Assembly: GCF_030252425.1 (NCBI RefSeq) | Contig: NZ_CP126994.1 | Span: forward strand, 2,232,001-2,296,000 | Direction: 5' to 3' | From: Acidisoma sp. PAMC 29798 | Lineage (GTDB): Bacteria; Pseudomonadota; Alphaproteobacteria; Acetobacterales; Acetobacteraceae | Length of the DNA stretch: 64,000 nt | In this document: piece by piece, positions 24,026 to 35,765 of the stretch | Layout: each line of letters starts with the position of its first letter | Numbering within the stretch: the first letter of the stretch is position 1 | Notes under the pieces: model-generated | Seen by the model: the letters and a program-made list of their open reading frames with translations, nothing else | What the model was told of the DNA's origin: nothing | The model's database searches: none | Made by a program: the position numbers and the translations under genes

Positions 24026-25621
24026 TTATGGTTTCCATCGCCATGGCAGAAGCTCATCGATCCTGTGAATAGGATGGTCGGCGATCCTTCCGATGATATC
24101 GGTTAAATAGGCCTGAGGGTTGATGCCGTTCATCTTGGCCGTCTCGACGATCGTGTACATGCAGGCGGCGCGCTGTCCGCCAGCGTCAGAGCCGCAGAAC
24201 AGGTAATTCTTTCTTCCGAGGACCGGAGGTTTCATGGCGCGTTCAGCGGCGTTATTGCTGATCTCGAGCCTGCCATCCGTGACGTAGCGGGTCAGCGCTT
24301 TCCAGCGTGACAGGGTGTAGCGGATTGCCTCGGCGAGAGAGCTCTTGCCGCTGATCCGGAGGAGCTCTGTTTCGAGGAATTGCTTGAGCTGCTCCAACAG
24401 TGGCTCGGCGTGTTCTCGCCTTGCGAAGGCGCGCTGGTCGGGCGGCTTTCCGCGGATGTGCCCTTCGACGGCGAACAGAGCCGCGATCCGGTGAAGAGCT
24501 TCAAGGGCGATCGGCGACCCCGTTTGATGGTGCACGTCGTAGAAGTGCCGCCGGGCATGGCTCCAGCATGCGACCTCGACCAGCGGGGCGTCACCCAGTG
24601 GGGTCGTCGGCTTGTAGAACCGGGTAAATCCGCCGTAGCCGTCGGCATGCAGGAACCCACGATAGGAGCCGAGCAACGCTTCCACATGGACGCCCTTCCG
24701 GTCTGCCGAGTAGTGGTAGAATGCCGCGGGCGGCACATCCGATCCCCAGGGCCGCTCGTCCCGCACCGCGACCCAGAGCCGTCCCGTCCTGGTCTTGCCC
24801 AGACCCGGCGAGAGCACCGGAACCGTAGTGTCATCGGCATGGACAGCGACGCCCGCACGGACATGACGACCGATGGCTTCGGCAAGAGGCGCCAGCAGGA
24901 ACAACGCCTGTCCTATCCAGTCGGCGAGTGTCGAGCGGTCCAGTTCCACCCCTTCACGGAGGCTGATCCCCGCCTGGCGGTGCAGTGGGATGTGGTCGCA
25001 GTATTTCGACACGACGACATGGGTGATCAGTCCCGGCCCCGGGCGCCCGCGCTCGATCGGCAGCGTGGGCATCGGCGCCTGGACAATCGTCTCGCAAGAC
25101 CTGCAGCTCAGCTTGGGGCGAAGATGCCGAATGACCTTGAAGCTGGATGGGACGTATTCCAGCACATCACGCTCGTCCTGCCCGATGCGGCTGAACACGG
25201 TGCCGCCGCAGCCCGGGCAAACCCCGACTGGGTCGTGGGTGACGATTTCACGGGGTAGATGCTCGGGCAGCGGCTTGCGCACCGGATGTCTGCGCTCGGC
25301 GGCACCAGGTCGACCATGCAGGGCCGTGACAGCCGCTCTGGCCCGGGCTTCACTTTCGCCCGCATCCTCTTCGAGGTCGCCGATCAGGAGTTCGAGCTGC
25401 TCGATGTCTCGGTCAAGCTTCTCGGAAGACTGTCCGAACCGTGCCCGCCGGAGCTTGGCGAGCTGCATCTTCAGCTTCTCGATATGGAGCGCCTTCGCAT
25501 GGATTTCTGCCGCGTTGGCAGCGATCTCGACGTCCTTGCGCGCCAATTCCGCCTGCAGGGTTTCAGCAAAAACCCGCAACGCATCTGGATCTGTCGGGAG
25601 AGGATCACTCGCCAGGGACAT
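24026..25621 (-). CDS. tnpC: IS66 transposase TnpC
   Basis: 531 residues. N-terminal coiled coil (EKLDRDIEQLELLIGDLEED), zinc-ribbon-like CPGCGGTVFSRIGQDERDVL with LSCRSCE, then the DDE core with VHADDTTVPVL, HADGYGGF, CWSHARRHFYDVH, the conserved ISNNAAERAMKPPVLGRKNY and the C-terminal LPW. Full length and intact, so the element is potentially active. Confidence 0.93.
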   Translation of the reverse strand: MSLASDPLPTDPDALRVFAETLQAELARKDVEIAANAAEIHAKALHIEKLKMQLAKLRRARFGQSSEKLDRDIEQLELLIGDLEEDAGESEARARAAVTALHGRPGAAERRHPVRKPLPEHLPREIVTHDPVGVCPGCGGTVFSRIGQDERDVLEYVPSSFKVIRHLRPKLSCRSCETIVQAPMPTLPIERGRPGPGLITHVVVSKYCDHIPLHRQAGISLREGVELDRSTLADWIGQALFLLAPLAEAIGRHVRAGVAVHADDTTVPVLSPGLGKTRTGRLWVAVRDERPWGSDVPPAAFYHYSADRKGVHVEALLGSYRGFLHADGYGGFTRFYKPTTPLGDAPLVEVACWSHARRHFYDVHHQTGSPIALEALHRIAALFAVEGHIRGKPPDQRAFARREHAEPLLEQLKQFLETELLRISGKSSLAEAIRYTLSRWKALTRYVTDGRLEISNNAAERAMKPPVLGRKNYLFCGSDAGGQRAACMYTIVETAKMNGINPQAYLTDIIGRIADHPIHRIDELLPWRWKP

Positions 25622-25686
25622 GCCACCATTGTACCGGACCCGGCCACTCGGGTACAGCCTTTTCAGCGCGGCGAAGGCAGTTTCCG

Positions 25687-26040
25687 CTAAACCGCGACCG
25701 GCGTGCGTGGCGCCTCCGGTGCGACCGTCCGGCGCCAGTCAATCGCCTCGATCAGGAGAGCCATCTGGGCGGGCGTCAGAACCATCCCGCCATCGACGAT
25801 CGGCGGCCAGATGAAGCGGCCGCGTTCCAGCCGCTTGGCAAAGAGGCACAGGCCCGAGCCATCGTAGTAGAGGATCTTCAGGTAGTCGGCTCGCTTGCCG
25901 CGGAAGATGAAGACATGGCCCGAGAAGGGATCGACGCCCAGGATCGGTGCCACCTGGGCCGCGAGACCATCGAACCCATAGCGCATGCTGACAGGACGAC
26001 ACGCCAGGTAGACCCGCGTGCCCGCGGCAACCTGGATCAC
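25687..26040 (-). CDS. tnpB: IS66 accessory protein TnpB
   Basis: 117 residues with VYLACRPVSMRYGFDGLAAQ, FIFRGKRADYLKILYYDGSG and GRFIWPP. It overlaps tnpA by 4 nt (ATGA) and ends 65 bp before tnpC starts. Confidence 0.92.
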   Translation of the reverse strand: MIQVAAGTRVYLACRPVSMRYGFDGLAAQVAPILGVDPFSGHVFIFRGKRADYLKILYYDGSGLCLFAKRLERGRFIWPPIVDGGMVLTPAQMALLIEAIDWRRTVAPEAPRTPVAV

Positions 26041-26609
26041 GATAGGCTCCGCAGCACGGCCAGCACGCGGCGGAGCGCCCCATCATCGACGGTCGCATCC
26101 ACCCGCAGTGTCGTGCCGCCCGCCATGTCGATCTCGATGATGCTCGGTCGCTCATCCCTGTCGCGCCGCGGAACGGCCCCCCGGGGCCGCCGCGAAACCT
26201 TGGCAATGTCCATGCCGAGCGTCGATGTGCCGCGGGCCTCGGTAGATGGCTGAACCTTGGGCTTTGGAGGTCCGACAATCCCGAGCGGGATGAAGGTGAC
26301 CGGCACCTCCACGGGGGCCGCCTCTACGGTGTCCGGCCGCCTGCGCCGCGATGGGACAGAGGATGTCACCATCGTTTGTGCCTTCGCCATCCGGCGCCAT
26401 CGATAGATGAGGCTGACGTGGATACCGTAGCGATGCGCTAAGTCTGGAGCCCGGACCCCTGGGCCAGATGATTCCGCCACGACCCGTGCGCGAAAGGCCG
26501 CGCTATAAGCTGGCCGTCGTTCAGAGACGATCTCGATCCGAGACTCAGAAGTTGCCACAGTGGCTGCCACAGTCGCAGCTTCAGTGGTTGAGATTCTCTC
26601 GCTGTCCAT
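26037..26609 (-). CDS. tnpA: IS66 accessory protein TnpA
   Basis: 190 residues. HTH core AYSAAFRARVVAESSGPGVR with RYGIHVSLIYRWRRM. It has a longer, Pro/Arg-rich middle than the TnpA at 21321 and ends VDDGALRRVLAVLRSL. First gene of the element, 59 bp from the right end. Confidence 0.88.
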   Translation of the reverse strand: MDSERISTTEAATVAATVATSESRIEIVSERRPAYSAAFRARVVAESSGPGVRAPDLAHRYGIHVSLIYRWRRMAKAQTMVTSSVPSRRRRPDTVEAAPVEVPVTFIPLGIVGPPKPKVQPSTEARGTSTLGMDIAKVSRRPRGAVPRRDRDERPSIIEIDMAGGTTLRVDATVDDGALRRVLAVLRSLS

Positions 26610-26676: not shown

Positions 26677-26721
26677 CGTGGTCGGCGACACCTCGTCGAG
26701 TGCCTTCCAGAAGCCCTATGG
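26677..26721 (-). pseudogene. IS256-family transposase remnant, upstream half
   Basis: Minus-strand GFWKALDEVSPTTRH, which joins RHQRCTVHKTANV across the IS66 insertion. It is truncated on the other side by an IS3 remnant. Confidence 0.65.
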
Positions 26722-26985
26722 CAGTCGATTGGCCGCTCTCGGTGCCATCGCGTCCATGAGCCGGACGGGCTGCGGCTACGATAATGCGCCAACGGAGAGC
26801 GTCTTTCATACGCTCAAGGTTGAGCTCGTACGGTACCGACGGTGGAACACCCACGACGAAGCGCGGCGCGATCTGTTCGCCTATATTGAGGGCTACTACA
26901 ATCTCCAGAGGATCCATTCCGCCTTCGGATACCTCACTCCCGACCAAGCCGAGCAGATGGCAGCCTGAACCTGTGTCCACGCAAT
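26722..26985 (+). pseudogene. C-terminal remnant of a second IS3-family transposase
   Basis: Reads YGSRLAALGAIASMSRTGCG, DNAPTESVFHTLKVEL (carrying the last catalytic Glu), HSAFGYLTPDQAEQMAA, stop at 26968. This is followed by an IS3-like end (TGTGTCCACGCAATTGGGGG). The N-terminus and the first two catalytic Asp residues are gone. Confidence 0.8.
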
Positions 26986-27023: not shown

Positions 27024-29273
27024 TCAAATCCTACTGGCTTCCTTCAACGAAAACTCGAGATTGAGTCCTAATCCTTCGTGGGTTTCAATGCCGGTGGCAA
27101 AATACTCGTAGATTGGGTCGGTGAGGGAGTTCCCAAAGGTGAATCTGGCATCGGCAATGTGCCAGGACCGCTTAATTCTCAAATCCGTCACGCCTACGCG
27201 TGTAATAGCGGTTTCCGGCGAGCCGACAAGACCGATCATGTTATAGACGGCAAGGCTCGCGAGTGTCTCGACAGTCTCGTTCTTCGGCAGCCCTGAAACG
27301 AAATCCAAGGCCGCCGTGAGCAAGCTCAGACCCGCCTGCCTTGGCGAAAGACGTTCGGTCGAGATCCTCCAACTTCCCGCTATCAGAGGTAGTGGTCTGA
27401 CGGCGACGCCGTGTTCACCCGACGGAAGTCCAGGTCTTGTGACCTGAACCTCCTCGGAACCCAGGTTGACGGCAGCGAATTTCTTCGGAAATCCGTAAAC
27501 CTCCCGGCCGGCGGCGGTGGCTACGTCGTTGTCGAGATAAATCGCAAGCGGGAATATGCCGAATCTCGGTTTACGGCCGGATATCATCGAGATGTCAGCT
27601 TCGCGCACAAGAGCGGCTATGACACACTCGTTGTAGGCATAAACGGCTCCGGTCGTGTCATGGTCGGCGCTGACATGGCCGTGATGGAACACGCTCAGTA
27701 GGACCTGATTTTCAAAACGGGGCAGCAGGATCAATCCAGGGGGGAGTTCGGCTTGTACGCGCGAACAATGGCTTGGCAGCAGGAACGCTGAAGCGACCAC
27801 GCTTTTAAAGCGGTATGGCGGAGGCAAAACAAGAGAATGAGTCCGCGGCATCGCTCGGCGCATAGGTGCAGCAGCCAGAATGGACTTTTCTGTAGCGCCA
27901 TCGCAAATAAGCTGCGCCGCTTTGAGACCCGATTCGGTCGCCGCATCGACGCACGGCAATGGAAACGAGTTTTTAATCCATGCCCCCGCAAGAAACAGAT
28001 TTGAAATGGGACTCTGCACGGTGGGCCTGAGGGCGAGCTGACCCGGAATGGTCAACGGGTAGCGATGGACCGCCGCGTCATTTCTGCGTATCACGACGTG
28101 CTGCTCTGCCGGATCGTGGGAAATAGTAAATCCAACAGTGCGTAGATCTTGGAAGAACTTATCTTTCAGATCATCATCGCTCCAGCTCTCATAACCTGAT
28201 TGGGGTCCCGTGGCCATGATCTCAAATGGCAGCGGCCGATTGCCGGCCTTCCCGCGCACGCGGGTCATCGGCCCTAAGATACTGAACGGCGGAGGTAAGC
28301 CGTTGACGATTGTATCTATGTAAGCCGGAATCGGGTCTTCCTTGAACCAGGCCTGGATCGACATGCTCGATACAGTGGTCAGGCTATGAATCTGCTTGAA
28401 ATAGGGCAGCGCTTCAAGGCCGCCCAGCTTAAGCGATTTGAAGTCCTCCAACCCGAGGGCAAGGATGAAACTGTCGCCGTTCTCAGTGAGGACTTCGCCC
28501 GTTTCCGTATTCTCCATGAGGACGTGACTGATCCGGTCTCCGGCGGGCGTGGGCTGCACATCCGTCAGTCGATGCTTAAGATGAAGTCTTCCGCCCAGTT
28601 TCTGAAAATACTCCACGAGTGGCATTATGATCGCATCCCGCGACGGGAAATTGAAAAACAGGAGACCAGGTCTCTTGAATATGCGATATAGGGAACTGAT
28701 GCCCACCGTCGCGGAGAGATGATGTGGCTCATTGAAGCCGGCGTCATAGAATTGCTGCACGAAGTTACTTTGCAGTATGGATTCGGGCAAACCGATCAAC
28801 CGCCCATACTCGCGGAGGTCGAGCGCGTCATATTTATCCAGCGAACTGAATCCTCGCAATTTCACGTCATAGATGATCCTGGCAATAGCGGGGAGTACTT
28901 GGCGTAGAGAGATCTTTTCGGAGGTACTAAAGCCGCTATACGTCAGAAAAAACGTTCTTGGATGAAATTTACGGATTGCTCCCCGCTCGAAGACAAAGAT
29001 ATGCTTTGGAGCGCGGGTAAAGTTGCTTAGGGCATCGGCCCTTTTGAGGAGCGGCAGAATAGATTCGTAAAAGTCAAAGAGAGAGTGAAGACCGTGCTCT
29101 ATCGGATAGCCATTTTCATCCCAACTCGCGAGTTGCCCACCGAGTAATTTATCGTCAGCCGCTGTATAAAGGTCCACGTCTAATCTTGGGGAACGCTCTT
29201 TGAGTGCGATGCCAGCGGCCAAGGATGCGATCCCGCCACCCACAATGACAATGCGGCGTGCCTCAACGTCCAT
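27024..29273 (-). CDS. fusion of FAD-dependent desaturase-like oxidoreductase and acetoacetate-decarboxylase-like domain
   Basis: 749 residues. Residues 7-455: flavin amine-oxidase/carotenoid-desaturase fold with dinucleotide site IVIVGGGIASLAAGIALKER, second FAD motif (GGQLASWDENGYPIEHGLHS) and C-terminal FAD clamp (NLFLAGAWIKNSFPLPCVDA, ATESGLKAAQL). Residues ~480-749: an ADC-superfamily domain with VYAYNEC (Glu ~549) and GREVYGFPKKFA, whose Lys pair (~597-598) matches the Schiff-base lysine position of acetoacetate decarboxylase. Known ADC-fold proteins decarboxylate beta-keto acids or do aldol/dehydration chemistry; the desaturase fold oxidises lipophilic C-C bonds. The linker is a ~25-residue basic segment. 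No signal peptide or clear membrane helix. The gene is isolated between IS debris and visibly more AT-rich than its neighbours, suggesting transfer. The single ATG at 29273 has a poor ribosome site. The reaction is not predictable; a two-step oxidation and decarboxylation is my inference. Confidence 0.87.
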   Translation of the reverse strand: MDVEARRIVIVGGGIASLAAGIALKERSPRLDVDLYTAADDKLLGGQLASWDENGYPIEHGLHSLFDFYESILPLLKRADALSNFTRAPKHIFVFERGAIRKFHPRTFFLTYSGFSTSEKISLRQVLPAIARIIYDVKLRGFSSLDKYDALDLREYGRLIGLPESILQSNFVQQFYDAGFNEPHHLSATVGISSLYRIFKRPGLLFFNFPSRDAIIMPLVEYFQKLGGRLHLKHRLTDVQPTPAGDRISHVLMENTETGEVLTENGDSFILALGLEDFKSLKLGGLEALPYFKQIHSLTTVSSMSIQAWFKEDPIPAYIDTIVNGLPPPFSILGPMTRVRGKAGNRPLPFEIMATGPQSGYESWSDDDLKDKFFQDLRTVGFTISHDPAEQHVVIRRNDAAVHRYPLTIPGQLALRPTVQSPISNLFLAGAWIKNSFPLPCVDAATESGLKAAQLICDGATEKSILAAAPMRRAMPRTHSLVLPPPYRFKSVVASAFLLPSHCSRVQAELPPGLILLPRFENQVLLSVFHHGHVSADHDTTGAVYAYNECVIAALVREADISMISGRKPRFGIFPLAIYLDNDVATAAGREVYGFPKKFAAVNLGSEEVQVTRPGLPSGEHGVAVRPLPLIAGSWRISTERLSPRQAGLSLLTAALDFVSGLPKNETVETLASLAVYNMIGLVGSPETAITRVGVTDLRIKRSWHIADARFTFGNSLTDPIYEYFATGIETHEGLGLNLEFSLKEASRI

Positions 29274-29877: not shown

Positions 29878-30205
29878 TCACCCAACGCTTTGCGCGCTCG
29901 TGTCCTGTGTCCACTTCTTGAAGGCTGTTGCACACGCAGCACGATAGCGGCTCGCTGTCATCAGATGGCGCCTTGGGCGGAAGTTCCCAGAGATGAAAGC
30001 GTGAACGGTCAGGAAACGCTGTGCCTGGCGCATCGACTTGAATCGCTGCATCTGCCGCTCTCGCCTTCGGGTCGGCCGATGCGAGTTCTCAGCGCGGTTG
30101 TTCAGGTAGCGGCTCGCTCGATGCTCGACGTTCGGGAGCAGTTCACGCTTTGCCACACCGTAGCTCTTTAGCTTGTTTGTTATCAGGACACGCGGCTCAT
30201 ACTCA
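29878..30205 (-). pseudogene. C-terminal half of an IS6-family transposase
   Basis: Minus strand reads PRVLITNKLKSYGVAKRELL, then HRASRYLNNRAENSHRPTRR, RERQMQRFKSMRQAQRFLTV. These are the conserved C-terminal motifs of IS6-family enzymes, including the catalytic Glu region RAENSH. The N-terminal half is replaced by the IS5 element starting at 30206. Confidence 0.8.
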
Positions 30206-30214
30206 GAGTGCCGT

Positions 30215-30553
30215 TCAAAACCATGATGTGAGTAAGCGACTACAGATGATAGAGCACGCGAGCAAGGTGAAGGCGAGATAAATATCGGTACTGCGTTCGT
30301 AACGGACCGTGAGACGGCGAAACCGAGAGATCCAGGCGAAAGTCCGATCGACGACCCATCGGTGTTTTCCCAGATGAGCGCCGCTCTCGATGCCTTTTCT
30401 AGCGATGCGACGTTTGATGCCGCGTTGAGTGCAGGCTCGGCGATAGCGCATGTAATCGTATGCTTTGTCAGCGTGGAGTTTGCTCGGGCGGCGTCGTGGG
30501 CGTCCCCGCTTGCCGCTGATGGTCGGAATGGCGTCAAGGGGTGGCTCGAGCAT
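30215..30553 (-). pseudogene. IS5-family transposase, C-terminal ORF
   Basis: 112 codons from ATG 30553, but homology continues upstream in the same frame (TTGPSPTERGRPGTKRHIVT, DRQGIPLAVLLSGANLHDSR) to the C6T6 run at 30678-30689. Contains KLHADKAYDYMRYRRAC and HRWVVDRTFAWISRFRRLTV, the last with the catalytic Glu replaced by Asp. A slip on the homopolymer could be the programmed frameshift of this group, but a second shift near 30690-30700 with missing sequence makes the gene look dead. Confidence 0.75.
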
Positions 30554-30703
30554 CCGGCTGTCGTGAAGATTAGCGCCACTCAGCAGGACGGCGAGTGGAA
30601 TACCCTGTCGATCCGTGACGATGTGCCGTTTTGTGCCGGGGCGCCCGCGTTCCGTGGGGCTTGGCCCTGTCGTTTCACCCCCCTTTTTTCGGCAATGGAC
30701 GCG

Positions 30704-30973
30704 CTATCCATGCAGGCACGGCAGCAACTCACGATGCAGACCGTCCCATATGCCGGCCATCTGCCAGTCCCGAAGACGTCGCCAGCAGGTCACGCCAGAC
30801 CCGCGCCCCATCTCTTGAGGCAGCATCTCCCAGGGAATGCCGCTCAGCAGAACGAACATGATCCCAGTCAGGGCGGCGCGATCGGAAACACGCGGGCGAC
30901 CGCCTTTCGGATGCAAAGGAACGAGCGGTTCTATCAGCGCCCACAGATCGTCAGAAACAACAGGAGAAGCCAT
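30704..30973 (-). pseudogene. IS5-family transposase, N-terminal ORF
   Basis: 89 codons: VSDDLWALIEPLVPLHPKGG, RPRVSDRAALTGIMFVLLSG, IPWEMLPQEMGRGSGVTCWR. This is the DUF4096-like N-terminus of IS5/IS427 transposases. It ends ELLPCLHG at a stop where about 15 residues of the usual sequence before MDSAS are missing. Confidence 0.8.
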
Positions 30974-31066: not shown

Positions 31067-32095
31067 TCACGTTCTTGCTGGTTTAGCAACTGCTGAAACC
31101 CTCATATCGACGATATGATAGCGCCCGCGACCTGTCACTTTAGCCACATACAAAGCGTTGTCCGCAGTGAGCAAACTGGCGTCGAGACCGTAATCTCCAC
31201 GAACTATTGCAACCCCGATGCTAACACCGATTTCGGGAGAATGATCGTCAATTTGATAAGGACGTCCAATCGCCATAACAAGATCGCGGGCCAGGTTTTC
31301 GGCCGTCGACATGATGCTAATGCCATCACGTAGAACGACGGCGAACTCATCTCCCCCGAGCCGAGCTACATGGGCTGCCGCGGGTAGGCTGATTTGAATA
31401 CGATCGGCGACTTGCTTAAGCAAGGTATCTCCAACGGCATGCCCAAGTCGATCGTTGATATTCTTAAAGCCATCGAGATCAAGATAGAACAGAGCGATAT
31501 GGGATTCATCGCGCGTCTCCTCCAGCATTTCCTGCAGGCGTCGACGGTTACCAAGACCAGTGAGTGGATCGTGCTTGGCCAGAAACTCGATCTGGGCATT
31601 CCGCTCCGCTAGCGCAATTTGGCGCGTGCGGGCCTCGAGAAGCTCGACCACCGTTGCTGCCAAGGCCGCTAGAATAGACCTATCATTTATCGAAAACTCC
31701 TGGTGCGATTCTGTATCGAGAACGCATAACGACCCGACGCATGCACCTGATGGAGCAACCAGGGGAGCTCCAGCATAGAATCGAAAATGTGGGGGCATGG
31801 CAACAACGGGCGCGTTCAGGAAGCGTGGATCCCTTGACGCATTAGCTACCACAAAAACTTCATTACTGCGGATTGTTTCATTACAAAACGCCGTGCTACG
31901 CGGCATTTCGGTTGCATCGACTCCGAACTTCGATTTGAACCAAAATCGATCATGATCAACGAATGAAAGCGTGCAGACCGGCAACCCAAAAATGGATGCC
32001 ACTAGTTTGGTTATGCGATCGAAATTCGGCTCGGGAAGCGTATCGATAATATCGTAACGTTGCAAGGCGATCTCTCGCCGTTTTTCTTCGTCCAT
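31067..32095 (-). CDS. GAF-GGDEF diguanylate cyclase
   Basis: 342 residues. GAF domain from about 20 to 155 (LPEPNFDRITKLVASIFGLP, FVDHDRFWFKSKFG, CVGSLCVLDTESHQ), then GGDEF from about 170: HDPLTGLGNRRRLQE, FYLDLDGFKNINDRLGHAVG and the active-site RLGGDEFAVVLRD. No EAL domain and no membrane segment; a cytosolic c-di-GMP synthase sensing a small ligand through GAF is inferred. No RxxD inhibitory site is evident in the expected place. It stands alone between an IS5 and an IS6 element, with an AT-rich upstream region at 32100-32240 that may hold its promoter. Confidence 0.9.
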   Translation of the reverse strand: MDEEKRREIALQRYDIIDTLPEPNFDRITKLVASIFGLPVCTLSFVDHDRFWFKSKFGVDATEMPRSTAFCNETIRSNEVFVVANASRDPRFLNAPVVAMPPHFRFYAGAPLVAPSGACVGSLCVLDTESHQEFSINDRSILAALAATVVELLEARTRQIALAERNAQIEFLAKHDPLTGLGNRRRLQEMLEETRDESHIALFYLDLDGFKNINDRLGHAVGDTLLKQVADRIQISLPAAAHVARLGGDEFAVVLRDGISIMSTAENLARDLVMAIGRPYQIDDHSPEIGVSIGVAIVRGDYGLDASLLTADNALYVAKVTGRGRYHIVDMRVSAVAKPART

Positions 32096-33376: not shown

Positions 33377-33896
33377 CGCATACCTCCCTTTTGTTTACAT
33401 TTTCTGATCGCTTTTCTTCTTAAGACTCGAAGGGCGATATGTCTCTACAGGATCCACGAGTTTGACTGTGCCGCGCATGCGCATCCTGCGAAGCGGCATT
33501 GTCAATGCCTGAAATAGGGTGTTCATTCCCTGGCCCTGTGACAATGATAGCCGAGTGCAGGTTTGATAGCTCGCGCGGATTTCGTAAAGCCTACAAAGCA
33601 TTAAACATGGTTGCGGATTATGATCAGGGATCGCCTTCAACTGGCCGAAACTTGGGGTTCCACCTTCAATGCCGAGAATACTGTCCGCGTAGTAGAAGAC
33701 GTGGAAACTGACCGGGTTATAATTTAGCTGGCGTGAACTGTCGTGACGAAGCCGATTCTTTCTGAAGATAAATGATTTCACGGCTGCGTTACGGACGTGA
33801 TCCTTTCTTGGATCTCGATTAAGTCTTCAATTACTCCGGCACGAGCCGACGATCCGCTCGCTGCCCTTTGGCTAGCCTTGAATGTGGGACAATGCA
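33377..33896. other. 520-bp gap upstream of the ClC gene
   Basis: No gene recognised. A minus-strand frame (33395-33781) has no family match. Presumably it contains the ClC promoter, which I could not locate with confidence. Confidence 0.45.
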
Positions 33897-35765
33897 ATGA
33901 CCGATAACTCCACTGTGCGAGACTTACCTGACCACATGGCATCGTCCGTCGAAACATCCACCCGCCCACCTAAGGCACTTCCCGGTCGGGAGGAGCCCGA
34001 GGCGAACCGGCTCAGTCTCCTACCACTCTCCCTTCTCGCCCTCATCGTCGGTGTAATCACTGGTGTTGGCGCCGTTGTTTTCCGTGGTCTCATCGGGCTG
34101 GTCCACAACGTCATGTTCCTTGGACACTTTGACTTTGCCTACAACGCTAGTCTTTTTACACCTGCAAGTCCCTGGGGGCCTTGGGTGATCCTCGTCCCAG
34201 TGATTGGCGGTATGGGTGTTACCTGGATCGTCTCAAACTTCGCGCCAGAAGCCAAGGGCCACGGCGTGCCTGAGGTAATGGACGCTATCTACTATAAACG
34301 TGGCATCATACGGCCGGTCGTGGCGCTCGTTAAATCAATCGCGTCGGCACTCGCCATCGGGAGTGGGAGCGCCGTAGGACGAGAGGGACCGATTATTCAA
34401 ATAGGCTCCGCGCTCGGCTCTACCCTTGGGCAAATGATCCGTATGCAGGCTGGCCAACGCATCACGCTTGTCGCTGCGGGCGCGGGCGCCGGTATCGCCG
34501 CCACGTTCAACACGCCGATTGGCGGCGTCCTGTTTGCAACGGAATTGATGCTACCCGAAATCAGTGTAAATACGTTTTTGCCGGTCGCGGTCGCAACAGG
34601 TACCGCCACTTTCATTGGCCGACTCTTCTTCGGATCCCAGCCCGCGTTCAGTGTTCCTACAAGTCTTGCGGCAATTCCGAACGAGCCCAGCAGCGTGTTG
34701 ACCCTCGCGTTGTATGCCCTCTTGGGTGCTTTCATCGGCTTGTCGGCGGCGTGCTTCATTCGTGGTCTGCACTGGGTCGAAGACGGCTTTGACAGGATTC
34801 CCGGGCGCTATACCCGCCATGCCCTAGGAATGCTGGTCGTCGGGATCATGATGTACATCCTCTGGCTCACGGCTGGACACTACTACACAGAAGGAGTTGG
34901 CTACTCGACTATACAGGCCACACTGTATGGCCACATCACGTCGGCACCGTTTCTTATACTCCTTTGCGTCTGTAAGCTTTTGGCCACTTCGATTAGCTTG
35001 GGTTCGGGTTCGTCCGGCGGTGTATTTTCCCCATCTCTCTACATTGGTGCGACGCTCGGCGCTGCCTTTGCCTCCATTGTGACGATGCTGTTTCCCGGCG
35101 CTCCCGTGAGCCTGCCAGCCTTCGCGATGGTAGGCATGGGCGCCATGGTCGGAGGCGGCACAGGTGCGGCAATGACCGCCGTAACGATGATTTTCGAGAT
35201 GACGCGGGACTATAACATCGTTCTGCCGATGATCCTGGCCGTCGCTCTCGCCCTCGGTGTGCGGCGGATGGTGTCACGTGAAAACCTCTATACATTGAAG
35301 CTCGTTCGGCGCGGCCATCCGATACCGAAAGCGCTGCATGCCAATATGTTCCTTGTGCATAGTGCTGCCGACATTATGGAACGAGACTTACTCGTCCTCG
35401 AGGAGACCGTCCCTTTTGCGACCTTTGCCGCAATGGCGGCTTCACAAGGCGGTTTGCAGCATGTCGTAGTGACACGTGAGGGCGTCATCGTTGGAGGATT
35501 GCATGTGGGCGTCGATCTTCGTCTCGCACTCCAGACTACGCCTCCCGACGTCACGCTGAAGGAACTTATGCAAAAGAGCTTCACGATCGTTAGAGAGACC
35601 AATGTCGCCTTCGATGTGATCACCATGATGGGAAGAAAGCATGCAAGTATGGCCATCGTCATTAGCCAGGTACATGATCATGAGCCGCAGCGCGTGCTAG
35701 GAGTTATCACCAAGGAGCACGTTGCAGACACAGTAATGCGGAGTATCGAAATCTATCCTAGTTGA
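33897..35765 (+). CDS. ClC-family chloride channel/antiporter with C-terminal CBS domains
   Basis: 622 residues. ClC core with about 10 or more hydrophobic segments from residue 40. Selectivity/gating motifs: GSGSAVGREGPIIQIGSALG (GREGP carries the gating Glu), GVLFATELMLPE, and GSGSSGGVFSPSLYIGATLG (GGxFxP). The C-terminal ~130 residues (SAADIMERDLLVLEE..., LKELMQKSFTIV...) form a pair of CBS domains, which often bind adenine nucleotides and tune transport. Of the in-frame starts, 33897 has GGGA at proper spacing; 33882 has none. Whether it is a Cl-/H+ exchanger or a channel cannot be settled, but the gating Glu is kept. A small acidic protein gene follows by 33 bp. Confidence 0.9.
   Translation: MTDNSTVRDLPDHMASSVETSTRPPKALPGREEPEANRLSLLPLSLLALIVGVITGVGAVVFRGLIGLVHNVMFLGHFDFAYNASLFTPASPWGPWVILVPVIGGMGVTWIVSNFAPEAKGHGVPEVMDAIYYKRGIIRPVVALVKSIASALAIGSGSAVGREGPIIQIGSALGSTLGQMIRMQAGQRITLVAAGAGAGIAATFNTPIGGVLFATELMLPEISVNTFLPVAVATGTATFIGRLFFGSQPAFSVPTSLAAIPNEPSSVLTLALYALLGAFIGLSAACFIRGLHWVEDGFDRIPGRYTRHALGMLVVGIMMYILWLTAGHYYTEGVGYSTIQATLYGHITSAPFLILLCVCKLLATSISLGSGSSGGVFSPSLYIGATLGAAFASIVTMLFPGAPVSLPAFAMVGMGAMVGGGTGAAMTAVTMIFEMTRDYNIVLPMILAVALALGVRRMVSRENLYTLKLVRRGHPIPKALHANMFLVHSAADIMERDLLVLEETVPFATFAAMAASQGGLQHVVVTREGVIVGGLHVGVDLRLALQTTPPDVTLKELMQKSFTIVRETNVAFDVITMMGRKHASMAIVISQVHDHEPQRVLGVITKEHVADTVMRSIEIYPS

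Follow-up and report, generated by a model that had tools for sequence, protein, structure and literature searches.

A fused FAD-oxidoreductase and acetoacetate-decarboxylase-fold gene among insertion sequences in Acidisoma sp. PAMC 29798, and related fusions in other bacteria

Introduction

We know of no acetoacetate-decarboxylase (ADC) domain in either 15-cis-phytoene desaturase or HpnE. The oleate hydratase CLA-HY, which belongs to another flavoprotein family, requires FAD. In the Lactiplantibacillus cla pathway CLA-HY is paired with CLA-DC, an ADC-family enzyme that, in the linoleate pathway of lactobacilli, is described as isomerising a double bond in a 10-oxo fatty acid (PMC13365329, PMC11719350). 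The Schiff-base residue of acetoacetate decarboxylase is given as Lys115 (PMC4520260).

In the window, by which we mean the whole 64,000-nucleotide stretch of the Acidisoma sp. PAMC 29798 genome analysed here, one gene joins an FAD module to an ADC-fold module. A preliminary description of this DNA called the architecture undescribed. This stands for the open-licence papers searched, where no description of an FAD-ADC enzyme was found (looser results being judged by title and the start of the abstract), but not for nature at large: the architecture occurs in many genomes, and in both domain orders.

Results

The fusion gene and its modules

Features are given in window coordinates, with strand and the basis of each assignment:

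24026..26609, minus: IS66-type element (Pfam DDE_Tnp_IS66, HTH_Tnp_1)
24026-25621, minus: TnpC of the IS66-type element (Pfam)
25687-26040, minus: middle frame of the IS66-type element (named from position only)
26037-26609, minus: TnpA-like frame of the IS66-type element (Pfam)
26678..26968, plus: IS3-type integrase, C-terminal piece (rve_2/rve_3)
27024..29273, minus: FAD-ADC fusion gene, 749 aa (single frame; Pfam)
27027..27818, minus: acetoacetate-decarboxylase-fold module, residues 486-749 (Pfam ADC, 54 bits)
27483..27485, minus: Lys597, the Schiff-base lysine position, motif GREVYGFPKK (alignments)
27627..27629, minus: Glu549 of the YxE motif (alignments)
27879..29273, minus: FAD module of phytoene-desaturase/HpnE type, residues 1-465 (Amino_oxidase, TIGR02731, HpnE, 5mog)
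29878..30973, minus: transposase pieces upstream of the fusion gene (IS240-type DDE; IS4/5 DUF4096) (domain scan)

The fusion gene (27024-29273, minus strand) is a single ORF of 749 codons with an ATG start and no internal stop. Its flavin and ADC modules each score above their Pfam cut-offs, supporting the two-domain, 749-residue frame of the earlier claim, and the motifs quoted with that claim lie where they had been placed. Pfam Amino_oxidase (PF01593) matches residues 17-455 with 88.2 bits (gathering cut-off 19.8), the dinucleotide-binding motif of that family being present, and NAD_binding_8 matches with 36.2 bits (cut-off 21.9); the recognisable motifs are GGGIAS, GGQLASW, EHGLH and a C-terminal GAW...PCVDAATESG. 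Scores against more specific NCBIfam models are much lower than their equivalog cut-offs: 86.3 bits of 569.4 for 15-cis-phytoene desaturase (TIGR02731), 74.7 of 283.05 for hydroxysqualene dehydroxylase (HpnE, TIGR03467), and 76 bits, again far under the cut-off, for zeta-carotene desaturase. The FAD half therefore falls within the superfamily and passes the test of none of these enzymes. Its closest PDB sequence is rice phytoene desaturase (5mog, residues 7-458, E 3.7e-18).

For the ADC segment, a score against the ADC profile had been set beforehand as a test: PF06314 matches residues 498-605 with 54 bits, above its gathering cut-off of 29.8, over the first half of the profile only (positions 28-118 of 238). 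The closest PDB sequence is ADC 3c8w (residues 569-608, E 0.0027). No Pfam family matched the last ~140 residues, and by sequence the C-terminal half of the module appears to have diverged beyond detection. A separate, canonical ADC gene is found in the same genome (G000:C1:2476481-2477194, L001; 225.9 bits).

Relatives with the same two domains

Searched as a single sequence, the window protein gave no match in plasmids or phages at E<=1e-5, and nothing confirmed in the first scan of genome contigs or in viral contigs; at E<=10, 44 plasmid records gave partial matches only, and six of these regions were opened. Among 398 sampled genomes of the phylum, its ADC half had no match but its own at E<=1e-6. 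Such searches are too blunt to judge uniqueness, and the idea of a fusion unique in nature, drawn from their silence, was dropped because a broader scan shows many fusions.

With an ADC profile, 48 of 398 genomes of the phylum proved to carry ADC. Of four long frames then inspected, three (G426, G536, G739) are ordinary ADC genes with chance extensions, and one (G628) genuinely fuses FAD and ADC in 972 aa and adjoins a large frame read as a cyclase from its sequence. The G628 protein aligns with the window protein at BLASTP E 2e-12 (25% identity over 402 columns, which take in the ADC part and the last stretch of the FAD part), and as a query it gave three matches, itself included, at E<=1e-25 in 299 genomes of the phylum, and 11 plasmid records. 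Among the latter, a Qingshengfaniella plasmid encodes a fused protein covering 97% of the query, annotated "NAD(P)-binding protein" and followed by an annotated cyclase; Azospirillum and Catenovulum plasmids carry FAD and ADC genes as unfused neighbours; and the gene next to the Rufibacter plasmid relative encodes a hypothetical protein that no Pfam family matches.

The broad scan of genome contigs, with an alignment of the window protein and five relatives as query, gave 346 candidates, of which 203 were confirmed and the best 80 analysed, at cut-offs of 40 bits for FAD and 25 bits for ADC. These 80 are dominated by Alphaproteobacteria, many records are metagenome bins, one of the loci (L103) is probably identical with L040 (G397), which has a contig of equal length, and the set may favour fusions because the confirmation query includes an ADC half. 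FAD precedes ADC in one stop-to-stop frame in 51 of the best 80 loci; the order is reversed in nine (seven Shewanella, two Myxococcota; one of the nine, L097, is weak, with ADC at 28 bits); the two are same-strand neighbours in 12; and no ADC was seen in eight, one of them (L075) cut by a contig end and at least four with long flanks on both sides. The architecture is thus not unique, 60 of the best 80 loci being fused (51 FAD-ADC and nine ADC-FAD). Fused or same-strand paired genes together make up 72 of the best 80, and by deposited names they fall in six phyla: Pseudomonadota 58, Myxococcota 6, Planctomycetota 3, Actinomycetota 3, Gemmatimonadota 1 and Spirochaetota 1. Linked loci occur in at least two separate FAD clades, one of 22 rows and one comprising L040 and L125. 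None of 119 Planctomycetota genomes matched at E<=1e-12, a threshold that misses such relatives, since the fused Rhodopirellula protein, from one of the 119, matched at 6.3e-12. In five loci (L107, L108, L129, L142, L045) another FAD gene of this family, lacking ADC, lies beside or near the FAD-ADC gene or pair.

Is the window protein one of this family?

The window protein carries FAD and ADC in one chain, as the broad family does, and on sequence grounds we regard it as a long-branched, compact, stand-alone, IS-flanked relative of that family. It may be an early member. An alternative is that it arose as an independent fusion, a compact HpnE/phytoene-desaturase-like gene having joined an ADC-like gene, convergently with the broad family. 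We consider this a real possibility, though somewhat short of an even chance. The FAD half scores 195 bits with a profile of seven compact, stand-alone Myxococcota proteins and 92 bits with the profile of the 22-row FAD-ADC clade, a comparison that leans because the Myxococcota set was picked for its similarity to the window protein. Stand-alone relatives of the FAD half were found in eight of 140 Myxococcota genomes at E<=1e-12, and none of the eight has an ADC match within the fetched flanks (one, L178, sits at a contig start), as independent fusion would have it.

The later phylogenies, weakly, and the ADC half lean against it. A first FAD tree left the window protein at an unresolved fork, but with the Myxococcota proteins added it is placed, weakly and on a long branch, beside the 22-row, mostly ADC-linked clade (UFBoot 89, SH-aLRT 81). 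In the ADC tree its neighbours, again weakly and across a long branch, are 15 rows of FAD-ADC partners (SH-aLRT 81), the ADC parts of six alphaproteobacterial fusions lying elsewhere. Grouping with the stand-alone Myxococcota proteins was not rejected (p-AU 0.197 and 0.236). By profile score the ADC half is nearest to the FAD-ADC partners (12 sequences, 45.7 bits), against 30.8 bits for the six alphaproteobacterial proteins and 28.2 for canonical ADC.

Active-site residues and predicted structures

The lysine by which PF06314 proteins are recognised, the counterpart of Lys115, is Lys597 here: it is invariant in all 21 rows of an alignment of the window protein with 20 chosen fusion relatives, and in a 43-row alignment as well. 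Gly589 is invariant in the aligned relatives and the YxE motif at Glu549 is common among them; Glu549 is in register with Glu788 of the Rhizobium relative in the 43-row alignment, MAFFT setting the motif one column off in the 21-row one. Lys598 is a lysine in two of the 21 rows only (the window protein and L070). The glutamate near position 549 and the Lys-Lys pair singled out in the preliminary description are thus all present, but the pair fails as a family feature, the second lysine being shared by one relative in 20.

The structure model of the window protein is poor, with a mean pLDDT of 43.4. That of the Rhizobium hainanense relative is better (pLDDT 84.4, pTM 0.71), with low confidence at residues 695-714, between its two parts. 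Against the PDB, the top Foldseek match of this second model is phytoene desaturase 5mog (E 2e-16); for its second part, ADC 3bgt ranks 32nd (1.3e-10, TMt 0.63) and MppR (4jmd) 37th. Amino-acid, polyamine and protoporphyrinogen oxidases are numerous in the same list, and an oleate hydratase stands at rank 26; being so rich in other flavin amine oxidases, the list fixes the fold of the Rhizobium relative and not its chemistry.

Neighbouring genes in the broad family

An all-against-all clustering of neighbours was noisy, and was replaced by a Pfam tally and by searches seeded with five cyclase/kinase-AAA frames, one of them (L108) from the 80-locus set itself. In 52 of the best 80 loci (L067-L146), a frame at most 700 bp away matches class III cyclase- or Ser/Thr kinase-AAA proteins (E<=1e-10, down to 66 bits), across six phyla by deposited names, and such a neighbour was also noted at L035, L044 and L047. 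Of the 52, the matches lie at 46 of 51 FAD-ADC fusions, four of 12 pairs, two of eight loci without ADC and none of nine ADC-FAD fusions. In a rough control of 11 loci at other ADC genes (L050-L060), only L054 matched, weakly (47 bits). The tally, over 93 neighbour frames from 26 loci (92 hand-picked from 145 called, plus a cyclase-like frame of L068; the 53 left out include some cyclase-like ones), is headed by AAA_16 (13), with adenylate/guanylate cyclase at 8 and protein kinase at 4. In the window, no frame matched the cyclase/kinase-AAA seeds at E<=1e-10.

A FadL/TodX-type porin lies near the Azospirillum genes, and in G643 (L048:8409-15983) a one-strand run comprises an FAD oxidoreductase, a hypothetical protein, a polyprenyl synthetase, a saccharopine-dehydrogenase-like gene and two frames judged ADC-like by eye, with no Pfam match at E<=0.001. 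The porin and the polyprenyl synthetase hint at lipids, each in one locus and neither by the window gene. Small proteins that by eye resemble phage tail-collar proteins recur near the module in Rhodobacterales (L089, L099, L100 and others).

Genomic setting and probable acquisition

The fusion gene is flanked on both sides by transposase genes or pieces (IS66, IS3-type, IS240-type and DUF4096 of IS4/5). Downstream, the IS3-type integrase piece begins 55 bp beyond the stop codon and the IS66-type element follows; upstream, the next non-transposase genes encode a GAF-GGDEF protein and a CLC channel. The former, a diguanylate cyclase gene (window 31067-32095), is also AT-rich and lies amid transposase pieces; the latter, a chloride channel gene with a CBS match (window 33882-35765), is within the same IS-dense stretch. 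No pathway genes adjoin the fusion gene. Its GC content is 54.1%, versus 61% in the rest of the window, and GC3 is 0.60 and 0.61 in its two halves. Among 395 sampled genomes of the order it was matched at E<=1e-20 in its own alone, the 394 others including three of the same genus. Recent gain is the simplest reading, in agreement with the earlier view of a lone, AT-richer, IS-boxed and probably acquired gene.

The same setting would suit a silent passenger, an intact gene stranded unexpressed amid IS elements: it is isolated, with transposase pieces around it and no match in the 394 other genomes, and its strand has no promoter-like matches where shuffled sequences give 1.9 per region. Both the 749 stop-free codons and the even GC3 of the two halves run counter to this, and we think it unlikely.

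Discussion

In this gene a phytoene-desaturase/HpnE-type FAD module shares one chain with an ADC-fold module in which the Schiff-base lysine is retained. Our tentative reading, which we hold at rather less than even confidence, is a bifunctional enzyme for a lipophilic substrate, which it would first desaturate or isomerise with its flavin and then process at a keto group through Schiff-base chemistry. The FAD module would take or move a hydride on a long lipophilic substrate (isoprenoid or fatty), giving desaturation or a double-bond shift; the ADC module may form an imine between Lys597 and the keto form, which it would then isomerise, condense or decarboxylate; and a shared intermediate would pass between the flavin chemistry and the imine chemistry. 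That the modules are fused in either order, and lie side by side on one strand, in many lineages is an argument for two steps on one intermediate. Several points count against the bifunctional reading: we infer both substrate and activity, the top Foldseek match leaving the chemistry unfixed; the last ~140 residues have no ADC match by sequence; the lipid-related neighbours occur in one locus each, none of them next to the window gene; no ADC was seen in eight of the best 80 relatives; and, at E<=1e-6, the window ADC half found no match other than its own among 398 sampled genomes of the phylum.

Along the lines of the preliminary description, an FAD dehydrogenase might supply a beta-keto acid decarboxylase of the classical kind, and the lysine pair that the window copy retains in GREVYGFPKK favours this. 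It seems improbable to us: the second lysine is absent from 19 of 20 aligned relatives, and other reactions are known for ADC-fold enzymes (CLA-DC, and MppR, a fold match). By analogy with CLA-DC, a double-bond isomerase role for the ADC part is at least as plausible as oxidation followed by decarboxylation or aldol chemistry, an order that is itself a guess. Another possibility is that the FAD module alone is catalytic and the ADC-fold part serves as a chaperone or regulatory domain that binds a lipid or an imine; a variable Lys598 and the lack of any score in the second half of the ADC profile would fit, but invariant Lys597 and Gly589 and a common YxE motif count against it, and we give it little credence. 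We think it unlikely that sequencing error merged two genes, given a frame open from end to end and the many fused relatives.

So often found beside the module, the cyclase/kinase-AAA-like gene hints at a link between the product and signalling. Perhaps FAD-ADC proteins provide the enzyme of a lipid signalling module that is widespread and undescribed: they would make or remove an oxidised or isomerised lipid, the adjoining cyclase- or kinase-AAA protein would sense it and convert it into a second-messenger or phosphorylation signal, and the window gene would be a mobile, sensor-free derivative. We regard this scheme as speculative and, taken whole, rather doubtful.

Joined in both orders, and neighbours where unjoined, the two folds would mark a two-step reaction of several bacterial phyla for which no description was found in the papers searched. 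With a real two-part gene and the same design across many groups, we see here a sign of an unstudied lipid-modifying activity and not a one-off oddity.

Comparison with known systems

The best sequence relatives of the FAD module are 15-cis-phytoene desaturase (5mog, TIGR02731), including the plant and cyanobacterial enzymes, and HpnE (TIGR03467), which share its FAD motifs; the desaturase is also the best fold match of the Rhizobium relative's model. The window protein nevertheless scores far below both equivalogs (86 of 569 and 75 of 283 bits). With PF06314 (3bgt, 3c8w; MppR 4jmd) the ADC module has the Schiff-base lysine and YxE in common, and the Rhizobium relative's model matches the family in fold; the window module differs in that only its N-terminal half scores, that it is fused to an FAD module, and that the second lysine is gone in 19 of 20 relatives. 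The Lactiplantibacillus cla pathway, as its sources describe it, brings an oleate hydratase and an ADC-family enzyme to bear on one fatty-acid intermediate and so offers a precedent for FAD-ADC, but through separate proteins, with a separate dehydrogenase in between. A further comparison is with the broad FAD-ADC family itself (Qingshengfaniella, Rhizobium, Roseovarius, Rhodopirellula, Shewanella), in which a Rhizobium has the FAD-ADC order and Shewanella sp. ANA-3 the ADC-FAD order: its FAD module is longer (~690 aa, versus ~465 in the window protein), its members are 21-24% identical to the window protein in the 21-row alignment, and they often, though not universally, lie by a cyclase/kinase-AAA-like gene, which the window lacks, but they have the same two domains in one chain.
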